In this document: positions 9,929 through 31,628 of the stretch, one piece after another
Layout of the letters: each line of letters begins with the position of its first letter
How positions within the stretch are numbered: the first letter of the stretch is position 1
NCBI GenBank assembly: GCA_012512595.1
Contig: JAAZDW010000028.1
Coordinates: forward strand, 1-33,372
Length of the DNA stretch: 33,372 bases
Direction of reading: 5' to 3'
Source: Erysipelothrix sp.
Lineage (GTDB): Bacteria; Bacillota_I; Bacilli_A; Erysipelotrichales; Erysipelotrichaceae
The notes under the pieces: generated by a model
The model's input: only the letters and a program-made list of their open reading frames with translations
What the model was told of the DNA's origin: nothing
Databases searched by the model: none
Translations under genes and position numbers: made by a program

Positions 9929-11263
9929 TTACGTTGTTTTATTTATCTTAACAATAACCCCATCTTGGGTGTTTTCGGCATAAACATCATAGCCATAAGC
10001 TTCAACTACGCGGTGTACAATTGACAACCCCATTCCAAAGCCACCATCACTACCTTTTTCATAGGCTTTAAACATTGTTTCAATGACTTCACTTGTAAGT
10101 GGTATTCCATCATTTTCAAAACTTAAATAATCTTGAGTCAGGGTTATTTTGATGTATGTTTTGGCATATCTAAAGGCATTATCTAAAATATTTTCACAGA
10201 CAACGCGCCAACTTTCTTCTTCACCTTTAAAAATAGAAGATTCAAGTTGAGTAATAATATTAATTTCAGGTCTGACAACTCTAACTGATAAAAGCGTCTT
10301 CTCTAATACAGCTTTTAAATCAATGGTTTTGTCTTCACTAGTAGAAACTAAGTATTCCATTCGATTTAATAAAAGCAGGCTGTAAACTTTTTGTTCTAAT
10401 CGATTTGCATGTTCAATAATTACATCAACACTTTTTTCAAGGGTATCATATGGATAAATTCCATCTTTAATACTCTCTCCATAAGACTTGATGGTAGCGA
10501 TTGGTGTTTTTAAGTCATGTGAGATATTTTGAATTAACTCTTCTTTAACGCCCTCTTGGCGTAAAATTTCCTTATTCATCGAAACTAAAGCCTCCCCAAC
10601 TTGACCAATTTCATCTTGGCGCGAAAGATTTAGTTCAGCTTGTTTGCCACCACTAACTTTGTCAATATAGTCTTGTATCTTACCTAAGGAATGAATAATT
10701 GAAGTAACCCAAATTAACATAATTGCAAAAAGAATAAAGACAATTGCAAAGATAGCATTTAAAATGTTACTTATTAAACGTGATTTGAATTCTTGACGAT
10801 ATGCATTACTTAAAGTTGATACAACGGTAATCTCTTGGTCTGCATCATTTAAGATTGCGATTAAGTATTGTTGATCTGCATCAGAGACCTCGAAAAATGC
10901 AAAATCTTTTTTCTGGGTCAATAATTGTTGCGTAATTAAATTGATTTGATTTCTAACATCACTTGATAGATAACGAAATGATTGGGTTTGGTATTGGGCT
11001 TCTTTGGTCCAAATTTTATGGGAAATGTTAAAGTCATTATTTGACTCTAAAAACATTCCCGTATCCTCGCGCTTGTAATTTTCAACAACGCCCTCTTGCG
11101 CATTGCCTAAAACGCCTTCCATTTCTACTCTAACAAAATTATTAATATTTTTATTTAAATAAACAAAGAAAAAAGACAAAAAGACCGTCACAAAGATTAA
11201 AATAATTCCAACTAATTGTTGAGTTAAACTTAAGTCAGAAAATAAACTATGTTTTCTTTTCAT
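9929..11263 (-). CDS. Sensor histidine kinase (HAMP, HisKA, HATPase_c), CssS-like
   Basis: This 444-residue membrane kinase has TM1 at about 16-36, an extracytoplasmic sensor at 37-165, TM2 at about 168-192 and a HAMP linker. HisKA has 'NISHDLKTPIA' with phospho-acceptor His249. The ATPase domain has the N box 'CENILDNAFRYAK' (357-369), G1 'FENDGIPL' and G2 'GGFGMGLSI' (407-415). The ATG at 11263 starts one base after the regulator stop, implying coupling. An in-frame ATG at 11290 overlaps the regulator and has no ribosome binding site, so I reject it. The partner regulator resembles Bacillus CssR from memory, so this could sense secretion or envelope stress (inference). It is the last gene of the cdaA-led transcript. 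Confidence 0.88.
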   Translation of the reverse strand: MKRKHSLFSDLSLTQQLVGIILIFVTVFLSFFFVYLNKNINNFVRVEMEGVLGNAQEGVVENYKREDTGMFLESNNDFNISHKIWTKEAQYQTQSFRYLSSDVRNQINLITQQLLTQKKDFAFFEVSDADQQYLIAILNDADQEITVVSTLSNAYRQEFKSRLISNILNAIFAIVFILFAIMLIWVTSIIHSLGKIQDYIDKVSGGKQAELNLSRQDEIGQVGEALVSMNKEILRQEGVKEELIQNISHDLKTPIATIKSYGESIKDGIYPYDTLEKSVDVIIEHANRLEQKVYSLLLLNRMEYLVSTSEDKTIDLKAVLEKTLLSVRVVRPEINIITQLESSIFKGEEESWRVVCENILDNAFRYAKTYIKITLTQDYLSFENDGIPLTSEVIETMFKAYEKGSDGGFGMGLSIVHRVVEAYGYDVYAENTQDGVIVKINKTT

Positions 11264-11264
11264 C

Positions 11265-11930
11265 TTAACCAAGCCTATATCCAAAACCATAAATCGTTGA
11301 AATAATTAAGTCTGGCATTTTTCGTCTTAACTTTCTTAAAGTATCATCGATAACCCGATCAGAAACTAAATAGCTATCCTCTTTCCACACTTGTGACAAT
11401 ATTTGTTCACGGGAAAAAGCTGTTTGGGGGTTTTTTGCAAATAAAAGTAGTAAGTCAAATTCTTTTGTAGTTAGATCAATCTGTAAATCATTTTGAAAGA
11501 CTATTCTTGAAGCTTCATCAACTTCATAATTATCTACTTCAATGCGTTTATTTATACTATCTCGGTAAGTTCTTCTAATTACCGCATTGACTCTTAAAAC
11601 GAGTTCTTTTGGTGAAAATGGTTTAGTGACATAGTCATCACTACCTCGCTCTAAACCAATAATACGGTCAAAGTCTTGGTCGCGGGCACTCATAAAAATG
11701 ACTGGTACTTCTGGAGAAACTACTTTAATTTCATCAATTAAATCAAAGCCACTTTTATCATCTAACATAATATCTAAGATCCATAAATCAATATCATCGT
11801 CATTTATTGCAGCATAAGCAGACTCATAAGTAAAGTATTGGCGAACTTCATATCCTTCTTGTTCTAAATACCGCTTTACAAGTTCATTTAGGTCTTTTTC
11901 ATCTTCTACTACACAAATAACTTTCTTCAT
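11265..11930 (-). CDS. OmpR-family response regulator, CssR-like
   Basis: This 221-residue regulator has a receiver domain with acidic pocket 'VEDE' (8-11), phosphorylation site Asp53 in 'LWILDIML', Ser81 and Lys103 in 'TKPFSPKEL'. A winged-helix DNA-binding domain follows with 'LTTKEFDLLLLF', 'FSREQILSQVW', 'SDRVIDDTLRKLRRK' and 'STIYGFGYRLG'. The 'LWILDIML', 'EFDLLLLF' and 'RRKMP-TIYGFGYR' stretches match my memory of B. subtilis CssR, the secretion-stress regulator of htrA/htrB, better than that of WalR or PhoP. No htrA lies in the window. The SD TTAGGTGA overlaps the glmM stop, and the gap is 8 bases. Confidence 0.9.
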   Translation of the reverse strand: MKKVICVVEDEKDLNELVKRYLEQEGYEVRQYFTYESAYAAINDDDIDLWILDIMLDDKSGFDLIDEIKVVSPEVPVIFMSARDQDFDRIIGLERGSDDYVTKPFSPKELVLRVNAVIRRTYRDSINKRIEVDNYEVDEASRIVFQNDLQIDLTTKEFDLLLLFAKNPQTAFSREQILSQVWKEDSYLVSDRVIDDTLRKLRRKMPDLIISTIYGFGYRLG

Positions 11931-11938
11931 TGTTTCAC

Positions 11939-13267
11939 CTAATTCTTATTGTTTACTACTGCGACTATTTCATCAACATACCCTTGACAGAGATCTAATG
12001 TTTTAGCTTCAACCATAACCCTAATCAAAGGCTCTGTACCACTTGCTCGGACTAAAACACGGCCTTCGCCATGAAGTCTTTCGCTAACATTTGAGATAAC
12101 ATCTTTTAACTTTTGGCTGTCTAAAATTTCTTTTGTATTTTTTACAACAACATTAACTAGTAGTTGTGGAAAAATATCCAAATCTTGCATCAGTTGGCTA
12201 ATTGACTTATTTTCTTTTGCCATAATACTTAATAATTTTAAACTAACGACAAAACCATCACCCATATTAGAATACTTCTTTAAGATAATATGGCCTGATT
12301 GTTCACCACCGATAATATGGTTATCATTTTGCATACTCTCAAAAACATTTTTGTCGCCAACGTCAGTAATAACTGTTTTAATACCATTATTATTTAAGGC
12401 CTTGTGCAGACCGATATTTGACATAACAGTTACCACAACCGTATCATTTTCAAGTTCTGCATACTTTTTATAATAGTTTGAAATAATATAAATAATTCCG
12501 TCACCATCAATAATGTTGCCTTGGTTATCAATAATCATTAAACGATCACCATCGCCATCAAAACTAACTCCTAAGTCGAAATCTTTCTTGTGCATAAATT
12601 CTTGGAGCGTTTTTGCATGTGTTGACCCACAGTTGTCATTTATATTTAAACCATCTGGTTGGTTGTGAATCGCTGTAACATTTAAACCAAAATCCTCATA
12701 AAGATGAGCTAAACGACTAGCTGAACCATTAGCGGCGTCAATCGCTATTTTATACTTTGACAAGTCACCATTGAATTGTGCTTTTAAATAGTCAATATAA
12801 CTTTTACTTAAGTCTTCGCGATAATTGATAATTCCAATTCTGTCATCCATCCGATACGGGATTTCAATTTCACCATCAATGTATTGTTCTATCTTACTCT
12901 GAAGAAAAGGATCGATTTTTAATCCTTTGGCATCCATTACTTTTAAGCCATTATCTGAATAGACATTGTGGCTTGCACTAATCATAATACCACCAACATA
13001 ACCGTTATTTTCAAGTAAAAATGATACGAGTGGAGTTACTACTACTCCAACTAAGTCAACATCACACCCTGAAGCACAAAGTCCACTTGCAAGTGCTGCT
13101 TCTAACATTTGTCCAGACTTTCTTGGATCGCGGCCAATTAGAAATTTATCGCCACTTTTTTTAGCTAACTCATAACCCAGATACCTGCCAACTTTATATG
13201 CCATTTCTGGAGTTAATTTTTCATTTGCTCTTCCACGAATCCCATCAGTTCCAAAATACTTCATCAT
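11939..13267 (-). CDS. glmM: Phosphoglucosamine mutase GlmM
   Basis: GlmM converts glucosamine-6-P to glucosamine-1-P on the path to UDP-GlcNAc. The 442 residues match the family length. Landmarks are 'KYFGTDGIRGRAN' at the N-terminus, the phosphoserine loop 'ISASHNVYSDNG' with Ser99, the Mg2+ loop DGDGDR at 237-242, 'GGEQSGHII' for sugar binding and 'RASGTEPLIRVM' at about 407-418. The loop has Val where 'SASHNP' is usual. Start: ATG-ATG at 13267/13264; the first overlaps the cdaR stop as TAATG. In many Firmicutes cdaA-cdaR-glmM is a conserved operon and GlmM binds and inhibits CdaA, so the linkage is functional. Confidence 0.96.
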   Translation of the reverse strand: MMKYFGTDGIRGRANEKLTPEMAYKVGRYLGYELAKKSGDKFLIGRDPRKSGQMLEAALASGLCASGCDVDLVGVVVTPLVSFLLENNGYVGGIMISASHNVYSDNGLKVMDAKGLKIDPFLQSKIEQYIDGEIEIPYRMDDRIGIINYREDLSKSYIDYLKAQFNGDLSKYKIAIDAANGSASRLAHLYEDFGLNVTAIHNQPDGLNINDNCGSTHAKTLQEFMHKKDFDLGVSFDGDGDRLMIIDNQGNIIDGDGIIYIISNYYKKYAELENDTVVVTVMSNIGLHKALNNNGIKTVITDVGDKNVFESMQNDNHIIGGEQSGHIILKKYSNMGDGFVVSLKLLSIMAKENKSISQLMQDLDIFPQLLVNVVVKNTKEILDSQKLKDVISNVSERLHGEGRVLVRASGTEPLIRVMVEAKTLDLCQGYVDEIVAVVNNKN

Positions 13268-14640
13268 TAGTTTTCCACCACTTCCATATTGATTTCATCA
13301 AACTCTAATTTATACGTAATAAAATAATTGTCTGTTTCTACCAACAATGGTAGTGAAACATCGCCTGGTTGGACTCCTGCCATATCAAAGTAGACCCGAC
13401 CAAAATTCTCTTCGGTTATTTCCTCAAGCCTTTTTGCTGTCCCATAAATGGTTACATCTATTTCGGCTTGCTCTGGATCTTGTAATCTTGTTTTATAACC
13501 CCCAACGTTGTTTTCAAATGCCACGGGCAAATTCTTTAAGACCTTTGAAACCTTAGGTCCAAGTTTAATATCTAAATTTACTTTAGCAATACTTGCTTGT
13601 CTGATTCCACTTGGCAATACAATATTTTCATAAATTTTTAAATCTTTATCTATTTGAGAAGCATCAATATTAACTCTAATTTCATTGGTGCTATCTAAGA
13701 CTGCTTGATTTCCAAATAATTCAATTGAAGAGTGATCTAAGGTAATACTGTCAATACTTCGATCACCTGGAATTTCGCCCCTTGGTACTACTCTAATTGC
13801 TACCGTTTTTTTAGGTGACGTAATTGGCACCGTAACCTTAACAATTTTTGGAATTAAATCAACATCGACTTTTTCTCCATTAATGTTGTAAGCATATAGC
13901 GGAGCTTCAGTTGTAAAGGTTTCGGTTGCATCTTTAACATCAATCAAAGCTTTTACATAGGCAATTGACTCTGTCGTTTTTGCGGAAGCTCTAACTAAAA
14001 CTTCTGTTGATTCAAATTCTGGTTCTCCTGGATAATATTTTTCATCCATTTTGTTTAAATTTAAATAATCATGACTTAAAGAAAACTTTGTTGTTTCTTT
14101 TTTTCTGATTCTAATTGTTGCACTATCAGGTTTAGTTGTGACATTAACTCGACTTGAAAAGTTGTCGGTTGTAAATTTTACGGTGTGCTCGCCTGTTTGA
14201 AGTCCAGACAAATCCAAAATAACTTTTGTATTTGATTGACTTTTTGCTGCATTTACATCACTGGCGGTTCTTCCTGTTAAACTAACATCGACGGTTTTAT
14301 CAAAGCCTGTAACTTCATAAACATCTAAATCAGCATTTAAAGTAACTGGATGGTTTTTAATTGTATAAGTTGAATCTAAAGCTAGCTGACCAGTGTTGCT
14401 AAAGTTTAGCATCATATACAAGCCTCCTGCTAAAATAAGTGAAATAATCTTATCGTGTTTACGACTAAATAAAAATCTGTCGACCGATGAACTAAACCAT
14501 CTGAAAACACGTTTAAAGGAATTTTCCACTGATTCATACGTTTCTCGAACACTCTGACTTCTTTCGGCAATTTTTTTAGCACGCCGGGTCTTGTCTTCTA
14601 ATCTTTTACTGTTTTTTTCGTTGTTATCTTTCGCCATCAT
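13267..14640 (-). CDS. cdaR: CdaR (YbbR-domain) regulator of CdaA
   Basis: This protein of about 457 residues has one transmembrane helix (about 64-80) and an extracytoplasmic part built of several YbbR repeats. Repeat-like phrases are 'LDLSGLQTGEHTVKFT', 'IDASQIDKDLKI' and 'VYFDMAGVQPGDVSLPLL'. CdaR partners the diadenylate cyclase CdaA and modulates its activity. Unusually, about 63 highly charged residues (KRLEDKTRRAKKIAERSQ and on) precede the helix; typical CdaR begins almost at the helix. AGAAGGTGATC places the start at ATG 14640 or 14637, not at the GTG at 14646 inside the SD. It overlaps cdaA by 17 bases, so the two are coupled. Confidence 0.92.
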   Translation of the reverse strand: MMAKDNNEKNSKRLEDKTRRAKKIAERSQSVRETYESVENSFKRVFRWFSSSVDRFLFSRKHDKIISLILAGGLYMMLNFSNTGQLALDSTYTIKNHPVTLNADLDVYEVTGFDKTVDVSLTGRTASDVNAAKSQSNTKVILDLSGLQTGEHTVKFTTDNFSSRVNVTTKPDSATIRIRKKETTKFSLSHDYLNLNKMDEKYYPGEPEFESTEVLVRASAKTTESIAYVKALIDVKDATETFTTEAPLYAYNINGEKVDVDLIPKIVKVTVPITSPKKTVAIRVVPRGEIPGDRSIDSITLDHSSIELFGNQAVLDSTNEIRVNIDASQIDKDLKIYENIVLPSGIRQASIAKVNLDIKLGPKVSKVLKNLPVAFENNVGGYKTRLQDPEQAEIDVTIYGTAKRLEEITEENFGRVYFDMAGVQPGDVSLPLLVETDNYFITYKLEFDEINMEVVEN

Positions 14641-15583
14641 GATCACCTTCTTTTTTTACTGGCAAATCTATTTGACTACTTTTAGAAAATTGTTTAATAA
14701 TTCGGTTTGTTTCCATTTCTTCTTTTTGTTGTTGTCTAATTTCCTTTTCAATTTGTGAGACCTTTTCTTCTGATTTGTCTACTTCAGGTTTTACTACCTC
14801 ATGTTCTTCCTCTTGAGCAAAAAGTGTCTTATGTAAATAAGCTGCTAATTCTTTGACTGATATTAAAGACATTCTACCTTCATGAGCGACTGAGACAAGA
14901 CCTGTTTCTTCACTGACAATTATTGTCACTGAATCACTTACTTCACTTATTCCAATTCCAGCCCGATGGCGAGCCCCATACTTGCTTGGCAGCCATTCAT
15001 CCGTTGGTGGAAAATAGGCTGATGCTGCCGCGATTCGATTACCTTGGATAATTACGGCACCATCATGAAGTGGGGTTCCCACAACAAAAATAGAACTAAG
15101 GATTTCTTTACTAACTTCTGAATTTAAACTTGTGCCTGTATTAATGTAATCAGCTAAGGAAATGTCTTGCTCAATTGTTATAAGCGCTCCAGTTTTTTCT
15201 GATGACAGTTGTGTAACTGACTCAACAATTTCGTTTATTAATCGCTCTCTTTGAGAAACAGTTAACGTTGATTGGGTTGAGAAAACACTTGATTTTCCAA
15301 GACGTTCCAACACTGATCTAATTTCAGGTTGAAATATAATTATAATTGCTAAAATTCCCCACGTCATAAATGTTTCTGTAAATATTTGTACCGTCGTAAA
15401 ACCTAAAATTTTAGCGATTAAGTTTGCAACCAACACAAAAAGAATACCTTTAAATATTTGAATTGTCCTGGCGTTATTTCTAATTATTCTTAAAGCATAA
15501 TGGATAATTATTGCCATTATTAGTATATCGAGTAAAACTTGCCCAAACTTTAACAATTTTGACAAAGTTATAAATTCTAACAT
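14624..15583 (-). CDS. cdaA: Diadenylate cyclase CdaA (DisA_N domain)
   Basis: CdaA makes c-di-AMP from two ATP, controlling potassium and osmotic balance and cell-wall stability. This 319-residue form has three N-terminal helices (about 13-33, 40-62, 66-86) and a coiled stretch. The DAC domain follows with 'VVGTPLHDGAVII' (DGA 174-176), 'ASAYFPPTDEWLPSKYGARHR' split by the RHR motif at 205-207, and 'VSEETGLVSVAHEG'. The last 60 or so residues are very charged and probably helical (KVSQIEKEIRQQQKEEMETN), longer than the usual tail. The start is ATG 15583: AGGAGG is 6 bases ahead of it but abuts the in-frame ATG at 15589. First gene of its operon. Confidence 0.95.
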   Translation of the reverse strand: MLEFITLSKLLKFGQVLLDILIMAIIIHYALRIIRNNARTIQIFKGILFVLVANLIAKILGFTTVQIFTETFMTWGILAIIIIFQPEIRSVLERLGKSSVFSTQSTLTVSQRERLINEIVESVTQLSSEKTGALITIEQDISLADYINTGTSLNSEVSKEILSSIFVVGTPLHDGAVIIQGNRIAAASAYFPPTDEWLPSKYGARHRAGIGISEVSDSVTIIVSEETGLVSVAHEGRMSLISVKELAAYLHKTLFAQEEEHEVVKPEVDKSEEKVSQIEKEIRQQQKEEMETNRIIKQFSKSSQIDLPVKKEGDHDGER

Positions 15584-15611
15584 AGACATCCTCCTAAATA
15601 TATACGTTTTT

Positions 15612-25078: not shown

Positions 25079-27142
25079 TTAGTCTTCTTTTTTGTTTGCC
25101 TCAATTACGGCCGTTGCAATACTGTTTGGAACTTCTTTATATCTCGATAATTCATAAGTATATTGGCCCTTGCCCTGGGTCATTGATCTTAAGTCAGTAG
25201 CATATTCAATAACTTCGGCCATTGGAACTTCTGCATTAATAATTTGGTCATGGTATGGATCATAGTCCATGCCCGTAATAATTCCGCGCTTTTTGTTTAA
25301 GTCGCCAACGATAGTTCCCGTATATGCCTCTGGAACTACGACTTGCATCGTCACCATTGGCTCAAGTAAGACTGGCTCAGCCTTTGGTATACCTGCCCGA
25401 TAAGCAATCCTGGCGGCCGTCTTAAAGGCGATATCTTTCGAGTCGACATCATGGTAAGAACCATCAGTTAAAGTAGCTTTGACTCCGACCATTTTATAGC
25501 CAGCTAAAACGCCTTCCTTCATTGCTTCGCGTAAGCCATCTTCAACAGCTGAGAAATACTGTCTTGGAACACTTCCGCCAAAAACGGTTTCTTCAAAAAT
25601 CATTTCTTCAGTATCAGCTGGTTCAAAGTTTACAAATACATGACCATATTGGCCTGAGCCACCTGATTGTTTTTTATGTTTACCTTCGGCTAAAACACTA
25701 CCTTTTATTGTCTCGCGGTATTGAACTTTTAATGGTTGTTTAATAACTTCAACTCGATATCTTGCCTTCATTTTGGCAATTGCGACATCAATTAGTTGCG
25801 AGCCAATTCCATACATTACTGTTTGATTTGTTTCGCGGTTACGGTCAATTCTAATTGTTTTATTTTCTTCTGTGATACGGTGGAGGGCATTTGATAATTT
25901 ATCTTCGTCATCTTTGGACTTTGGTTCAATTGCAACACCTAACATTGGACGACTAAAGTCAATTGGAAAGTGTTTGACAGGATAGTCTTTTGTAGCCAGC
26001 GTATCATTTGTGTCAGTGTTGGATAATTTAACAACAGCCCCAATATCACCAGTAAACAGTTTTCCAACTGCTTCTTGGTATTTACCATTAATTATATAGA
26101 TGGCATTGATTCTTTCGACTGCTCTTTTTTGAACATTGTATATTTCTGAGTCTGAGGTTAAAACACCACTCATAATTTTAATATAAGAAATCTTACCTAC
26201 AAAAGGATCAATAATCGTCTTAAAGACAAAGGCTGATAAGTGTTCTTGTTCATTTGTTTCTAATTCAATAACACTATTGTCTTGGTCAAAGGCTTCAACT
26301 GTCCCTTTTTCTTCATAATTTGGAAAGTATTCTGTTATTAAGTCTAAAAGACGTTTAATCCCAGTTTGATTTAAAGCTGACCCACAGTAAACTGGTCTAA
26401 TTTCACCTTCACGGACAGCTGTTTTTAAACCAACCGCAATTTCTTCTTCAGTAAATCTTTCACCTTCAAAGAATTTTTCCATTAAACTATCATCAGTCAT
26501 CGCCACGGCTTCAGCTAAATGATTATAGTACTCATCAACGATGTCCTTCATATTTTCTGGAACATCTTTTGCGGTCTTACGGTCATTGTAGTACCATGCC
26601 TTATTTCTTAAAATATTGACACTACCAATAACTTTACGGTCTTCAATAATCGGAATTTCAAATAAAATAACACTTTTACCAAATTGTTCTCTTAGTGAAT
26701 TATATACTTGGTCAAAGTCAGCTTTTTCATCATCTAGTTTATTAATAAAAAAGATTGTTGGAAGATTAAGACGATTTACTTCGCGATAAGCACTAATTGT
26801 CCCAGCTTCAACTCCTTCAATCGCACTTACTACAATTAAGGCATTATCGGCGACTTTTAAGGCTGATTCTTGTTCGCCTACAAAGTCTAAATAGCCTGGA
26901 GTATCTAGCATGTTTACTTTGCAGTCATTCCACTCAACTGGAATAACAGCTGTGTATATTGACTGACCTTTTTCAATTTCTTCTGGTTCAAAGTCTAAAG
27001 AACTTGTACCTTGGTTACTGTTGCCCATCCGGTCAGTTACGCCATTATAATAAAGAATTGAATCTACAAGCGAAGTTTTTCCGCTACCACTGTGTCCAAG
27101 TAAGACAATGTTTCTAATTTGATCTGCTAAATAGTCTTTCAT
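25079..27142 (-). CDS. EF-G-like translation-factor GTPase (FusA paralogue)
   Basis: This 687-residue protein has the EF-G domain order. The G domain has P-loop GHSGSGKT (16-23), 'DFEPEEIEKGQSI' as a divergent switch I (49-61), DTPG (80-83) and NKLD (134-137). Domain II ('VFKTIIDPFVGKISYIKIMS'), domain III, domain IV ('GGSGQYGHVFVNFEPA') and domain V ('EPMVTMQVVVPEAYTGTIVG', 'GQYTYELSRYKEVP') follow. It resembles the EF-G2/EF-G-like group more than canonical FusA, whose switch reads RGITI, or TetM. Roles of such paralogues are mostly untested; ribosome recycling, rescue or protection are options. Start ATG 27142, behind AGGAGG in the end of the ankyrin gene, one base after that stop. Confidence 0.9.
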   Translation of the reverse strand: MKDYLADQIRNIVLLGHSGSGKTSLVDSILYYNGVTDRMGNSNQGTSSLDFEPEEIEKGQSIYTAVIPVEWNDCKVNMLDTPGYLDFVGEQESALKVADNALIVVSAIEGVEAGTISAYREVNRLNLPTIFFINKLDDEKADFDQVYNSLREQFGKSVILFEIPIIEDRKVIGSVNILRNKAWYYNDRKTAKDVPENMKDIVDEYYNHLAEAVAMTDDSLMEKFFEGERFTEEEIAVGLKTAVREGEIRPVYCGSALNQTGIKRLLDLITEYFPNYEEKGTVEAFDQDNSVIELETNEQEHLSAFVFKTIIDPFVGKISYIKIMSGVLTSDSEIYNVQKRAVERINAIYIINGKYQEAVGKLFTGDIGAVVKLSNTDTNDTLATKDYPVKHFPIDFSRPMLGVAIEPKSKDDEDKLSNALHRITEENKTIRIDRNRETNQTVMYGIGSQLIDVAIAKMKARYRVEVIKQPLKVQYRETIKGSVLAEGKHKKQSGGSGQYGHVFVNFEPADTEEMIFEETVFGGSVPRQYFSAVEDGLREAMKEGVLAGYKMVGVKATLTDGSYHDVDSKDIAFKTAARIAYRAGIPKAEPVLLEPMVTMQVVVPEAYTGTIVGDLNKKRGIITGMDYDPYHDQIINAEVPMAEVIEYATDLRSMTQGKGQYTYELSRYKEVPNSIATAVIEANKKED

Positions 27143-27143
27143 C

Positions 27144-27824
27144 TTAGTCCTCCTCAACTTTCAAGTAAGGCTTTAATTCTTCAAAACTGTGACCTCTAAC
27201 ATAATGAATAGCATAATTTCCATCATTATCTTTTATACTAGTATCAGCACCTGCATTTAATAATAGCTTAACTAAATCAACATAGCCTGAATAACTAGCA
27301 CGCATTAAGGATGTTACACCATTAAAGTCTTGGGCATCAACTTGTGCACCATTTGTCAGTAAAACTTTTACTACATCAACTTTAAAGGCAATACAAGCAT
27401 CCATTAATGCGGTGCGACCTTTATTATCGGCAACATTAACGTCAGCACCCTTTTCAATTAATAGTTCAACAATATCTGTATGGCCTAAAAATGCGGCGCG
27501 CATTAAGGCTGTTCGACCACGATAGTCGGCTTGATTAATAACAGCACCACGGGCGACTAAGGAATCGACGATATGGTAGTGACCATTTTTAGCGGCTCCC
27601 ATTAGAGCTGTTTTATTATTTTTGTCTAAAAGATTAGTCTTAGCACCACGTTCCATTAAAAAGTCGACGACCTCATCATAGCCACGTTTGGCTACTCTTG
27701 TAAGAGCGGTACGGTTATCGGCATTGACAACATTGATGTCAGCGCCAGCTTCAAGTGCTTCAAGAACGCTTTTTAAATCTCTAGCGACGGCACCCTCGAA
27801 AAATTTACGATCTACTTGATTCAT
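27144..27824 (-). CDS. Ankyrin-repeat protein
   Basis: This 226-residue soluble protein consists almost wholly of six to seven ankyrin repeats. Successive phrases are 'NRTALTRVAKRGYDEVVDFL', 'NKTALMGAAKNGHYHIVDSL', 'GRTALMRAAFLGHTDIVELL', 'GRTALMDACIAFKVDVVKVL' and 'GVTSLMRASYSGYVDLVKLL', plus degenerate first and last units. Such repeats bind proteins; no enzymatic domain is present. ATG 27824 has AAAAGGAGGAG directly upstream; longer frames have no ribosome binding site and read back into the attenuator. Its last codons hold the SD of the EF-G-like gene, which starts one base later. This coupling suggests the two products act together (inference). Confidence 0.92.
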   Translation of the reverse strand: MNQVDRKFFEGAVARDLKSVLEALEAGADINVVNADNRTALTRVAKRGYDEVVDFLMERGAKTNLLDKNNKTALMGAAKNGHYHIVDSLVARGAVINQADYRGRTALMRAAFLGHTDIVELLIEKGADVNVADNKGRTALMDACIAFKVDVVKVLLTNGAQVDAQDFNGVTSLMRASYSGYVDLVKLLLNAGADTSIKDNDGNYAIHYVRGHSFEELKPYLKVEED

Positions 27825-27857
27825 AATTACTCCTCCTTTTTCTATTTGACTTGGAAT

Positions 27858-27884
27858 AAAAAAAGACGACACAGCGTGTACGTC
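27858..27884 (-). terminator. Attenuator terminator ahead of the ankyrin/EF-G-like operon
   Basis: On the minus strand GACG-T-ACAC, loop GCT, GTGT-CGTC (27884-27865) is followed by seven T's (27864-27858). The stem is 8 bp with one bulged T. It lies between the leader ORF stop, which it touches, and the ankyrin start 34 bases on, so every transcript from the promoter at 27964-27991 must pass it. Confidence 0.8.
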
Positions 27885-27941
27885 CTAATTCTCCATATTA
27901 AAGATAATATCTCGTGATTTGATTTTTACAACTCTGCACAT
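27885..27941 (-). CDS. Leader peptide, 18 residues, of a probable ribosome-mediated attenuator
   Basis: The minus strand reads MCRVVKIKSRDIIFNMEN and stops at TAG 27887-27885, directly against the terminator hairpin. AGAGGTG lies six bases ahead of ATG 27941; an in-frame ATG at 27947 abuts that SD and is unlikely. A six-base inverted repeat ATATTA/TAATAT (27895-27910) falls inside the frame. A ribosome sitting at the end of this ORF would cover the 5' arm of the terminator. Promoter, SD, short ORF, hairpin with T run and operon follow one another as in known antibiotic- or amino-acid-responsive leaders such as that of tet(M). The peptide has no run of one amino acid, favouring a ribosome-state signal over an amino-acid signal (inference). 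Confidence 0.65.
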   Translation of the reverse strand: MCRVVKIKSRDIIFNMEN

Positions 27942-27963
27942 AAACATCACCTCTGTTAATATG

Positions 27964-27991
27964 ATTATATAATAATTAAAAGAAAATGCAA
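27964..27991 (-). promoter_or_regulatory. Promoter of the leader-ankyrin-EF-G-like operon
   Basis: On the minus strand TTGCAT (27991-27986), 16 bp, then a perfect TATAAT (27969-27964). The leader ATG follows 22 bases later. Confidence 0.7.
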
Positions 27992-29401: not shown

Positions 29402-30781
29402 TTAAAACTCTAAATTATTAACTGTTCTTGGAAATGGGATAACGTCTCTAATATTTGAAACGCCAGTAATATACATTAGAAATCTTTCAAAGCCCAGTCC
29501 ATAGCCAGCATGTTTAACTCCGCCATAGCGTCTAAGATCTAAGTACCAGTCCATTGAAATATCTTTTATATGTTCTTCTTGCAGACGGCTTTCTAAGACA
29601 TCTAAGCGTTCTTCTCTCTGTGATGCACCGACAATCTCACCAACTGATGGAACAAGTAAGTCCGCTCCAGCAACCGTCTTGCCATCATCATTGGCACGCA
29701 TGTAGTAAGGTTTGATTGCCTTTGGATAATCTTTTACAAAGACTGGTCCTTTAATGATTTCTTCACAAATATAACGTTCGTGTTCAGACTTTAAGTCAAT
29801 TCCCCATTCAACTGGAAATTCAAAATTTTGTTTTGATTCTAATAACATCTCAATTGCTTCTGTGTAAGTGATGATTTTAAATGTCGAATCGGCAACTTTT
29901 TCTAATTTCTCAATTAAACCTTTTTGGATAAATTTATCAAAAAATTCCATTTCAACTTCACAGTTAACTAAAACATATTTAATTAAATACTTAACCATGT
30001 CTTCAACTAAGTCCATACAGTCATCTAAATCGGCAAAGGCAATTTCAGGTTCGATCATCCAAAACTCTGAAGCATGACGGTTAGTGTTAGATTTTTCGGC
30101 TCTAAATGTTGGACCAAAAGTATACACATCTCTAAAAGCCATGATAAAGGCTTCGGCATGAAGCTGTCCAGTGCCAGTTAAAAACGCATGCTTTTTAAAG
30201 TAGTCTTTTTCATAGTCAGCATCTTGACGGGTAGTAACAGTAAATGTTTGACCAGTTCCTTCGCCATCACTTGTGGTTAAAATTGGTGAGTGTAAGTAAA
30301 CAAAACCTTGGCTTTGAAAAAACTCATGGACTCCCATTGATAAGATTGATCTTACTCTAAAGACGGCATTAAATGTATTTGTCCTTGGTCTTAAGTGCGA
30401 TATTTCTCTTAAGTATTCAAAAGAATGGCGTTTTTTCTGTAATGGATAACCTTCCTCTACATCGCCCTCTAAGATAACCTCTTTTAGTAAAATTTCAAAA
30501 GGTTGTTTTGACTTTGGAGTTAAAACTAGTTTTCCACTAACGGTAATTGCAACGCCAGTATTATAAGTAGAAACCTCATCAAAGTTTTCTAAAGTTTTGT
30601 CATAAACTAATTGGGTACTTTTAAAATATGTTCCATCATTAAATTCAATGAAGCCAATTTGGCCACTATCACGATTAGTTCTTATCCAACCTGATAATTC
30701 AACATATTCTAAACTATCTAATTGAGCTAAACTTTGAGTTTTAACTAACTCATATAATTCTCTTACGGTAACAAATTCCAT
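29402..30781 (-). CDS. asnS: Asparaginyl-tRNA synthetase AsnRS
   Basis: This 459-residue class IIb synthetase charges tRNA-Asn. The N-terminal OB-fold anticodon domain has 'VELSGWIRTNRDSGQIGFIE'. The catalytic core has 'THTFNAVFRVR'-like motif 1, motif 2 'FGPTFRAEKSNTNRHASEFW' (222-241), which with its Ser-Asn-Thr-Asn phrase is AsnRS- rather than AspRS-type, and motif 3 'GYGLGFERFLMY' (about 426-437). The length fits bacterial AsnRS. ATG 30781 has AGGAGG upstream; the frame runs on 12 codons into the T-box region but without a start signal. Expression is controlled by the T-box leader with an Asn specifier, and a terminator follows. Confidence 0.96.
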   Translation of the reverse strand: MEFVTVRELYELVKTQSLAQLDSLEYVELSGWIRTNRDSGQIGFIEFNDGTYFKSTQLVYDKTLENFDEVSTYNTGVAITVSGKLVLTPKSKQPFEILLKEVILEGDVEEGYPLQKKRHSFEYLREISHLRPRTNTFNAVFRVRSILSMGVHEFFQSQGFVYLHSPILTTSDGEGTGQTFTVTTRQDADYEKDYFKKHAFLTGTGQLHAEAFIMAFRDVYTFGPTFRAEKSNTNRHASEFWMIEPEIAFADLDDCMDLVEDMVKYLIKYVLVNCEVEMEFFDKFIQKGLIEKLEKVADSTFKIITYTEAIEMLLESKQNFEFPVEWGIDLKSEHERYICEEIIKGPVFVKDYPKAIKPYYMRANDDGKTVAGADLLVPSVGEIVGASQREERLDVLESRLQEEHIKDISMDWYLDLRRYGGVKHAGYGLGFERFLMYITGVSNIRDVIPFPRTVNNLEF

Positions 30782-30800
30782 ATTATTTCCTCCTAAATAT

Positions 30801-30985
30801 AAAAAAACGCATAACAAGGAACGTCATGCGCGGTACCATCCTAATTCATTATAAAAATGCTCTCGATACAGTTAACGCCTGTTTACGTAGTTGTCTACTT
30901 AACTTTCACCAACTAAGCTCATAAAGTGTTGAATATTATTTAGCAAATACTTAGCTTCCACCACTCTAAGCTCGCTGAAAATGCT
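30801..30985 (-). promoter_or_regulatory. T-box leader of asnS (tRNA-Asn sensing)
   Basis: The minus strand carries the T-box sequence AGGATGGTACCGCG (30842-30829), which overlaps the terminator hairpin GTCATGCG/CGCATAAC (30830-30808) ending in seven T's. Upstream, Stem I includes the AGAG-TGGTG region (about 30970-30955) and a specifier loop. There the phrase TTC-AAC-ACTTTATGAGC puts AAC, an asparagine codon, at 30930-30928, just before the conserved ACTTT-GAG. Uncharged tRNA-Asn would pair with AAC and with the T-box bulge to form the antiterminator and allow asnS transcription. The specifier agrees with the gene, which supports the reading. Stem II/III details were not modelled. Confidence 0.88.
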
Positions 30986-30989
30986 AGTA

Positions 30990-31017
30990 ATAATATCTTC
31001 TTTAATCTTTGCTATAA
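30990..31017 (-). promoter_or_regulatory. Promoter candidate for the asnS T-box transcript
   Basis: On the minus strand TTATAG (31017-31012), 16 bp, then TATTAT (30995-30990). It overlaps the last codons of rex and fires just before Stem I. The -35 is weak; readthrough from rex is the alternative. Confidence 0.4.
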
Positions 31018-31628
31018 CGATCAGATGTTTCAAATACAATTTCTTGGATCGATGATACTACGTCAACTTCCCTAATCACAATGCCATCTGGTACATTTAC
31101 ATGTTCATGTGTGAAATTTACAATACCTATTATACCATATTCAATTAACTTATCAACTGTCTCTTGTATATTATCAGAGCCAGTTAAGATCGCAATCTTG
31201 CTTCCATCTGGAATTTTTGTTTCTAATTCATCGATGTGATAAACTGGTACATTTAAATTTTGTTTGTCTTCTATTTTGGAATCAAAACCACAGACAATTT
31301 CTCCAACAACATAATCCCAATGGTTGTAATTAAGTAGGGCTCTACCTAAGTTACCGACTCCAACTAAGATTATTTTCTCTTCAAAATTCATTCCTAAAAT
31401 TTCATTAAATCGACTTTCTAAAAGTTCAACATCATAACCATAACCTTGTTTACCAAGTTTTCCTAATAAGGAAAAGTCTCTTCTGATTGTTGTTGATTTA
31501 ATATTAACTAAGTCACTTAATTCATGTGACATTACTTTGTCGACGCCTTCTCTTTTAAGTCTTCTAACAGCCTTTAAATAAAGCGGGTATCTTCTTAGTG
31601 TTGCATTTGATATTTTATTTTTACTCAT
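31002..31628 (-). CDS. rex: Redox-sensing transcriptional repressor Rex
   Basis: Rex senses the NADH/NAD+ ratio and represses fermentation and respiration genes. This 208-residue protein has an N-terminal winged helix ('ISNATLRRYPLYLKAVRRLK', 'VNIKSTTIRRDFSLLGKLGK') and a Rossmann domain with GVGNLG (90-95). 'VCGFDSKIED' and 'VYHIDELE' follow, and the swapped C-terminal helix 'SSIQEIVFE' closes the domain. The 'TTIRRDFS-LGK-GKQGYGY' phrase is diagnostic. ATG 31628 has GGTGAT upstream; an in-frame ATG at 31661 would extend into the promoter. A TCACAA-TTGTGA palindrome at its promoter suggests autoregulation. Preceded by tsaD after 105 bases. Confidence 0.95.
   Translation of the reverse strand: MSKNKISNATLRRYPLYLKAVRRLKREGVDKVMSHELSDLVNIKSTTIRRDFSLLGKLGKQGYGYDVELLESRFNEILGMNFEEKIILVGVGNLGRALLNYNHWDYVVGEIVCGFDSKIEDKQNLNVPVYHIDELETKIPDGSKIAILTGSDNIQETVDKLIEYGIIGIVNFTHEHVNVPDGIVIREVDVVSSIQEIVFETSDRYSKD

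Follow-up and report, generated by a model that had tools for sequence, protein, structure and literature searches.

A predicted leader-ORF attenuator before an ankyrin/EF-G paralogue operon, kept in nearly all of one gut-associated family

What controls an operon that couples an ankyrin-repeat protein to a paralogue of EF-G? The question is raised by a short stretch (27858-27991) of a 33,372-nucleotide contig of Erysipelothrix sp., the whole of which is called here the window. The two genes lie on the minus strand, as do all the parts of the locus described below: the gene for the ankyrin-repeat protein (226 aa; 27144..27824; Pfam Ank_2, E=4e-47) comes first, and it is overlapped by that of the EF-G paralogue (25079..27157). 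Judged by its sequence, the latter protein belongs with the EFG II type and not with the Tet(M) type. NF009381 is its best-scoring model, and an identity as a tetracycline ribosome-protection protein was rejected at 337 bits against a cut-off of 775. EFG II proteins, which are widespread and whose role is an open question, lack the RGITI G2 motif and carry Gly at position 16 (PMC3150367); both of these sequence-readable features are found in the window copy, which has KGQSI in place of RGITI and Gly for Ala at position 16 in the P-loop region, where LGHSGSGKT aligns with AAHIDAGKT (the G and H of LGHSGSGKT are invariant in alignment A1). Furthermore, at the position of the catalytic His, set by alignment with an EF-G of known structure, Tyr is found (DTPGH to DTPGY) in all 30 copies read, namely that of the window and 29 orthologues, which suggests that GTP hydrolysis may be altered or absent. 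A Bacteroides EF-G paralogue devoid of GTPase activity and induced in carbon starvation is described in reports cited in PMC10994844. Within the EFG II subfamily, the ankyrin partner and the leader attenuator are, as far as found, particular to Erysipelotrichaceae.

The sequence-only reading placed, ahead of this operon, a promoter, a Shine-Dalgarno (SD) sequence and an 18-codon ORF whose stop touches a terminator hairpin with seven T's, and every one of these parts was confirmed. A perfect -10 box (TATAAT, 27964..27969) is accompanied by a -35-like TTGCAT (27986..27991; 3/6 consensus, spacing 16), so weak that a consensus scan missed it, and transcription would be expected to start near 27957. 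The strong SD of the leader ORF, AGAGGTG (27948..27954), precedes the ORF itself (27885..27941; MCRVVKIKSRDIIFNMEN), the stop codon of which, TAG (27887-27885), is followed immediately by the first base (27884) of the terminator hairpin GACG(U)ACAC-GCU-GUGU-CGUC (27865..27884; 8 bp, one bulged U, loop GCU). The T7 tract of this intrinsic terminator (27858..27864) lies directly 3' of the hairpin, and the SD of the ankyrin gene, AGGAGG, was read from the sequence at 27832..27837. From the T-tract to the ankyrin ATG (27824) there are only 33 nt, too few for a second promoter. RNA folding predicted two hairpins in the leader RNA (z = -2.05), namely the terminator and a hairpin P1, whose 5' arm (27937..27954) comprises the leader SD and start codon and whose 3' arm (27900..27916) is formed by the late leader, complementary to the SD. 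At the gathering score, Rfam gave no match to the leader; its sole match in the window is a T-box leader elsewhere (RF00230, 93.6 bits; 30814-31018, minus strand), located just before a gene that resembles asparaginyl-tRNA synthetase (29402-30817).

Is such an arrangement an accident of one genome? Good full-length matches to the EF-G paralogue occur throughout Erysipelotrichaceae; the cultured Amedibacillus dolichus DSM 3991 and genomes of the Solobacterium type are among the relatives. An orthologue of the ankyrin gene is present in 236 of 273 Erysipelotrichaceae genomes and, within a set of 296 genomes of the class, in none that falls outside the family; the contig scan worked with an EF-G2 alignment as the query, and a single ankyrin protein used as the query found nothing. 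Conservation of the element was assessed on 156 distinct regions preceding the ankyrin gene by a strict automatic detector, which looks for a terminator plus an SD-led ORF with its stop between -13 and +18 nt from the hairpin start. A terminator was detected in 145 of these regions and an ORF of this kind in 126 of the 156, with the stop at exactly +2 of the hairpin in 57 of the 126. The chance level is far lower, as shuffled ORF interiors give a first stop in this interval in 12%, and the stops of the +1 and +2 frames fall there in 3 and 12, respectively, of the 126 regions. A -10-like box precedes the leader start by 22-65 nt in 117/126 relatives (74 when shuffled), the leader SD shows strong anti-SD pairing in the family profile, and the architecture of leader ORF and terminator recurs in at least 39 genera. 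Some of the regions missed by the detector are matches by eye (e.g. L031, L117, L146 and L153), and at least four (L015, L022, L125 and L152) seem to be without the element. The leader-ORF attenuator predicted before the ankyrin/EF-G operon is, then, kept in nearly all of this one gut-associated family. Two departures from the common form may be mentioned. In L047, L053 and L055 (genus g64), a terminator-like T-tract, CATCTTTTTT, stands about 250 nt ahead of the ankyrin gene, which looks like the result of an insertion that has pushed the element away; in L003, which belongs to the genus of the window, the leader ORF crosses the terminator and extends over the start codon of the ankyrin gene, which could be a natural variant or an assembly error. 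Like the regions without the element, L003 counts against the switch proposed below.

The element also appears to be specific for this operon. It was found in none of about 70 DTPGY EF-G paralogues that lack the ankyrin gene and stem from outside the family (Lachnospiraceae, Chloroflexota and others), and in 7 of 7 members of the family within the control set, as recognized by their ankyrin gene. Among other genes in the loci of the family the detector scored three; applied to about 362 kb of the genome to which the window belongs, it scored the ankyrin gene and 2 of 223 others, the latter two by chance ORFs of 8-9 residues. The genes upstream of the element vary, from a PatB-type aminotransferase in the window to the C-terminus of asparaginyl-tRNA synthetase in L003 and probably L004. 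Since these neighbours differ between relatives while the element stays, it was assigned to the ankyrin/EF-G operon, and the idea that the terminator is the upstream gene's own was rejected. With the conserved placement of the stop, this tie to the operon lends support to the original proposal of an attenuator based on a leader ORF that would control the two genes. A constitutive short RNA, or a small-protein gene with its own terminator, behind which the operon would live on leakage with the ORF being incidental, would account for the terminator anatomy, which could in principle yield a stable RNA ending at 27858. The same tie to the operon makes this very improbable, as do the conservation of frame and stop position, the lack of selection on the peptide described below, and the distance between hairpin end and ankyrin ATG, which, with a median of 40 nt across relatives, is too short for another promoter.

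Which features of the leader ORF are maintained by selection? Conservation of its amino acids in relatives, which the sequence-only reading had made a test of its proposal, was contradicted by the comparison of upstream regions: in 35 related pairs, the substitutions at codon positions 1, 2 and 3 number 138, 156 and 155. Given this even distribution, there is no sign of amino-acid selection in the aligned leaders, a conserved peptide was rejected as the signal, and stalling residues like those kept in leaders of the erm, hflXr or tnaC type were not found; a peptide-specific stalling device is thereby ruled out, an attenuator is not. The reading frame, on the other hand, leaves its mark on the indels, which are multiples of 3 in 25 of 65 cases in the ORF vs 9 of 89 in the flanks (p=5e-5), and on codon usage, where GTT accounts for 7.2% in frame and for 1.2% out of frame. 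What appears to be maintained is translation up to the hairpin, i.e. frame, stop position, SD and terminator, and not the peptide.

Some preferences of sequence are nevertheless found in the leaders. Val makes up 14% of their residues vs 7% in the proteins of the window, and 119 of the 126 leaders contain at least two. Amino-acid-specific attenuation, for instance a sensing of valine, would explain this richness, and is yet very improbable: in the leaders listed there are no runs of Val codons and no Val is fixed near the terminator, the enrichment being only diffuse, the search for an antiterminator (see below) was negative, and the target is not a biosynthetic operon. The leaders often begin with M-x-R, and 40 of 94 representatives end with Phe, which is part of the T-run before the hairpin. 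In genus g32 (L062-L115), conservation extends to the nucleotides themselves in a box, CTTTTCGGCGGGGTTG, which lies inside the leader ORF at -43..-26 from the hairpin and in which the third codon base is also fixed. The NusG-type pause motif TTNTTT occurs at this box in 15 of 43 cases (4 expected) and near the hairpin in 28 of 126 (8 expected), frequencies at which it was set aside as a general part of the element and kept as a lead only; an SD-like internal pause in the leader was also discarded as weak. In view of the Val enrichment and the sequence boxes, some sequence-dependent pausing could matter.

Classical attenuators of the trp/erm type oppose an antiterminator to the terminator. The pairing potential of the leader was compared within each leader and between it and parts of other leaders (own vs swapped), a procedure in which the terminator arms, as positive control, behaved as expected. 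Among relatives outside g32, the leader SD pairs more strongly with its own late leader than with swapped ones (-13.7 vs -10.0 kcal/mol, p=1e-11), which points to conservation of P1 through compensatory changes; the g32 leaders show no significant difference. The pairing probability of the SD and start region is 0.83 vs 0.41 in shuffles. In contrast, the late leader pairs less strongly with the 5' arm of its own terminator than with swapped arms (-5.1 vs -5.9, p=1e-5), and RNAalifold on the g32 sequences returned the terminator and no other conserved secondary structure. All of these p-values are optimistic because the pairing tests treat related sequences as independent. An antiterminator was rejected on these two grounds, which also bear on the possibility of an attenuator like those of erm, hflXr or vmlR, where a drug- or peptide-specific stall at defined residues releases an antiterminator. 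Such a device would have a leader, a terminator and a translation-GTPase target much like those found here, and the Val-rich leaders with their loose M-x-R and VFIV-like stretches could be read in its favour; it is improbable in the face of unselected amino acids, an avoided antiterminator pairing and a g32 structure consisting of the terminator only.

How, then, could the terminator be switched? With no antiterminator to compete, a ribosome on the 5' arm is what can block formation of the hairpin. Probably, the element is an attenuator that works without an antiterminator and is switched when a ribosome at the leader stop codon covers the 5' arm of the terminator. The earlier suggestion that this arm is masked by a ribosome close to the leader's end is thus upheld in a stricter form, on the strength of the conserved placement of the stop on the hairpin and of the missing antiterminator. 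The footprint of a ribosome with a stop codon in the A site extends some 10-12 nt further downstream; a ribosome holding the leader stop would cover the whole 5' arm. The leader SD would be open only during RNA synthesis, since P1 would sequester it as soon as the late leader has been made; translation of the leader would then be left to about one ribosome that closely follows RNA polymerase. If this ribosome is on the stop codon when the polymerase reaches the T-tract, the terminator would be blocked and the operon transcribed; if it has not yet arrived, or has already been released, transcription would end at 27858. The switch would be set by the timing of arrival and release of the ribosome, and the sequence of the peptide would hardly matter.

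Control by stop position in the absence of an antiterminator has an experimental precedent, by analogy, in the pil1 leader of S. gallolyticus, in which a stop just before or beyond the hairpin gives high expression and one at least 28 nt upstream mostly low expression (PMC3894217). The two systems share a leader ORF and a terminator with no described antiterminator, a stop-to-hairpin distance that sets readthrough (here as proposed) and a secondary role of the peptide. They differ in that slippage at repeats shifts the stop of pil1 (phase variation) whereas the stop described here is fixed on the hairpin family-wide, and in the SD-sequestering hairpin and the EF-G paralogue as target found here.

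To which state of the translation machinery would such a switch respond? A toy kinetic model, run on assumed rates, gave higher readthrough with slow release, lower readthrough with slow elongation, and almost none with the stop 15 nt or more upstream of the hairpin. That the EF-G paralogue is made when translation is impaired, as had been proposed, does not follow automatically, given that slow elongation lowers the modelled readthrough. The model, pil1 and the geometry of the stop together favour dwell at the stop codon, and slow release or recycling of the leader ribosome is put forward tentatively as the inducing signal, with a chance placed somewhat below even; the speed of coupled translation is its main rival. 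According to the latter, the same switch would be read in the opposite sense, brisk and closely coupled translation of the leader being the on state and impaired elongation the off state. Besides the lowered readthrough with slower elongation under the assumed rates, it can appeal to pil1, where the translated long leader is ON and loss of the start codon is OFF (PMC3894217). However, an ORF running through the hairpin would serve this purpose best, and the stop is instead held on the hairpin base, which implies that departure of the ribosome is part of the design; the opposite reading was judged unlikely, with a share of probability that is still appreciable. If slow release or recycling were the signal, the operon would be a feedback inducer of an EF-G-type factor. 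The most far-reaching version, a family-wide and sequence-agnostic sensor of release and recycling, in which the stop-codon dwell of a timed ribosome sets the level of the EF-G paralogue and a shortage of recycling induces a recycling-type factor, is speculative and, as a whole, rather unlikely. Occupancy of a leader stop codon is able to shift attenuation in E. coli, where RF3 deficiency shifts it toward termination, a direction due to the antiterminator geometry of that system (PMC5373646).

Further attenuators invite comparison. In Tn916, tet(M), the gene of an EF-G-like GTPase, is preceded by an attenuator that reportedly consists of a short leader ORF and a terminator and is relieved by translation inhibitors. 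For this attenuator, Su et al. 1992 is cited in PMC5418344 and PMC9154091. The present element has in common with it the short leader ORF and the terminator upstream of an EF-G-like GTPase gene, and differs in a target that is of the EFG II type instead of a tetracycline protection protein and in a peptide that is not conserved. Similarly, hflXr/rli80 of Listeria is a uORF-dependent attenuator upstream of a ribosome-splitting/recycling GTPase, but its leader combines an RLR stalling motif with an antiterminator (PMC6310831), neither of which was found here. The vmlR leader of B. subtilis shares tolerance of uORF variants, terminator control and the NusG TTNTTT pause, and is unlike the present one in its anti-antiterminator/antiterminator structures and its 3-codon uORF (PMC9226507).

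An attenuator that reads the behaviour of the ribosome on a leader stop would offer an experimental handle on the EF-G paralogue, as the translation defect that induces it would point to the factor's job. If the proposed mechanism is true, attenuation can be maintained over long evolutionary time without a conserved peptide or an antiterminator, and attenuators of such a kind would escape searches based on conservation of sequence or structure.

Elsewhere in the window (11939-15589, minus strand), the translations predict genes in a cdaA-ybbR-glmM-like order (diadenylate-cyclase-type, YbbR-like and phosphoglucosamine mutase), adjoining those of a response regulator and a histidine kinase (9929-11930), also predicted from translations.
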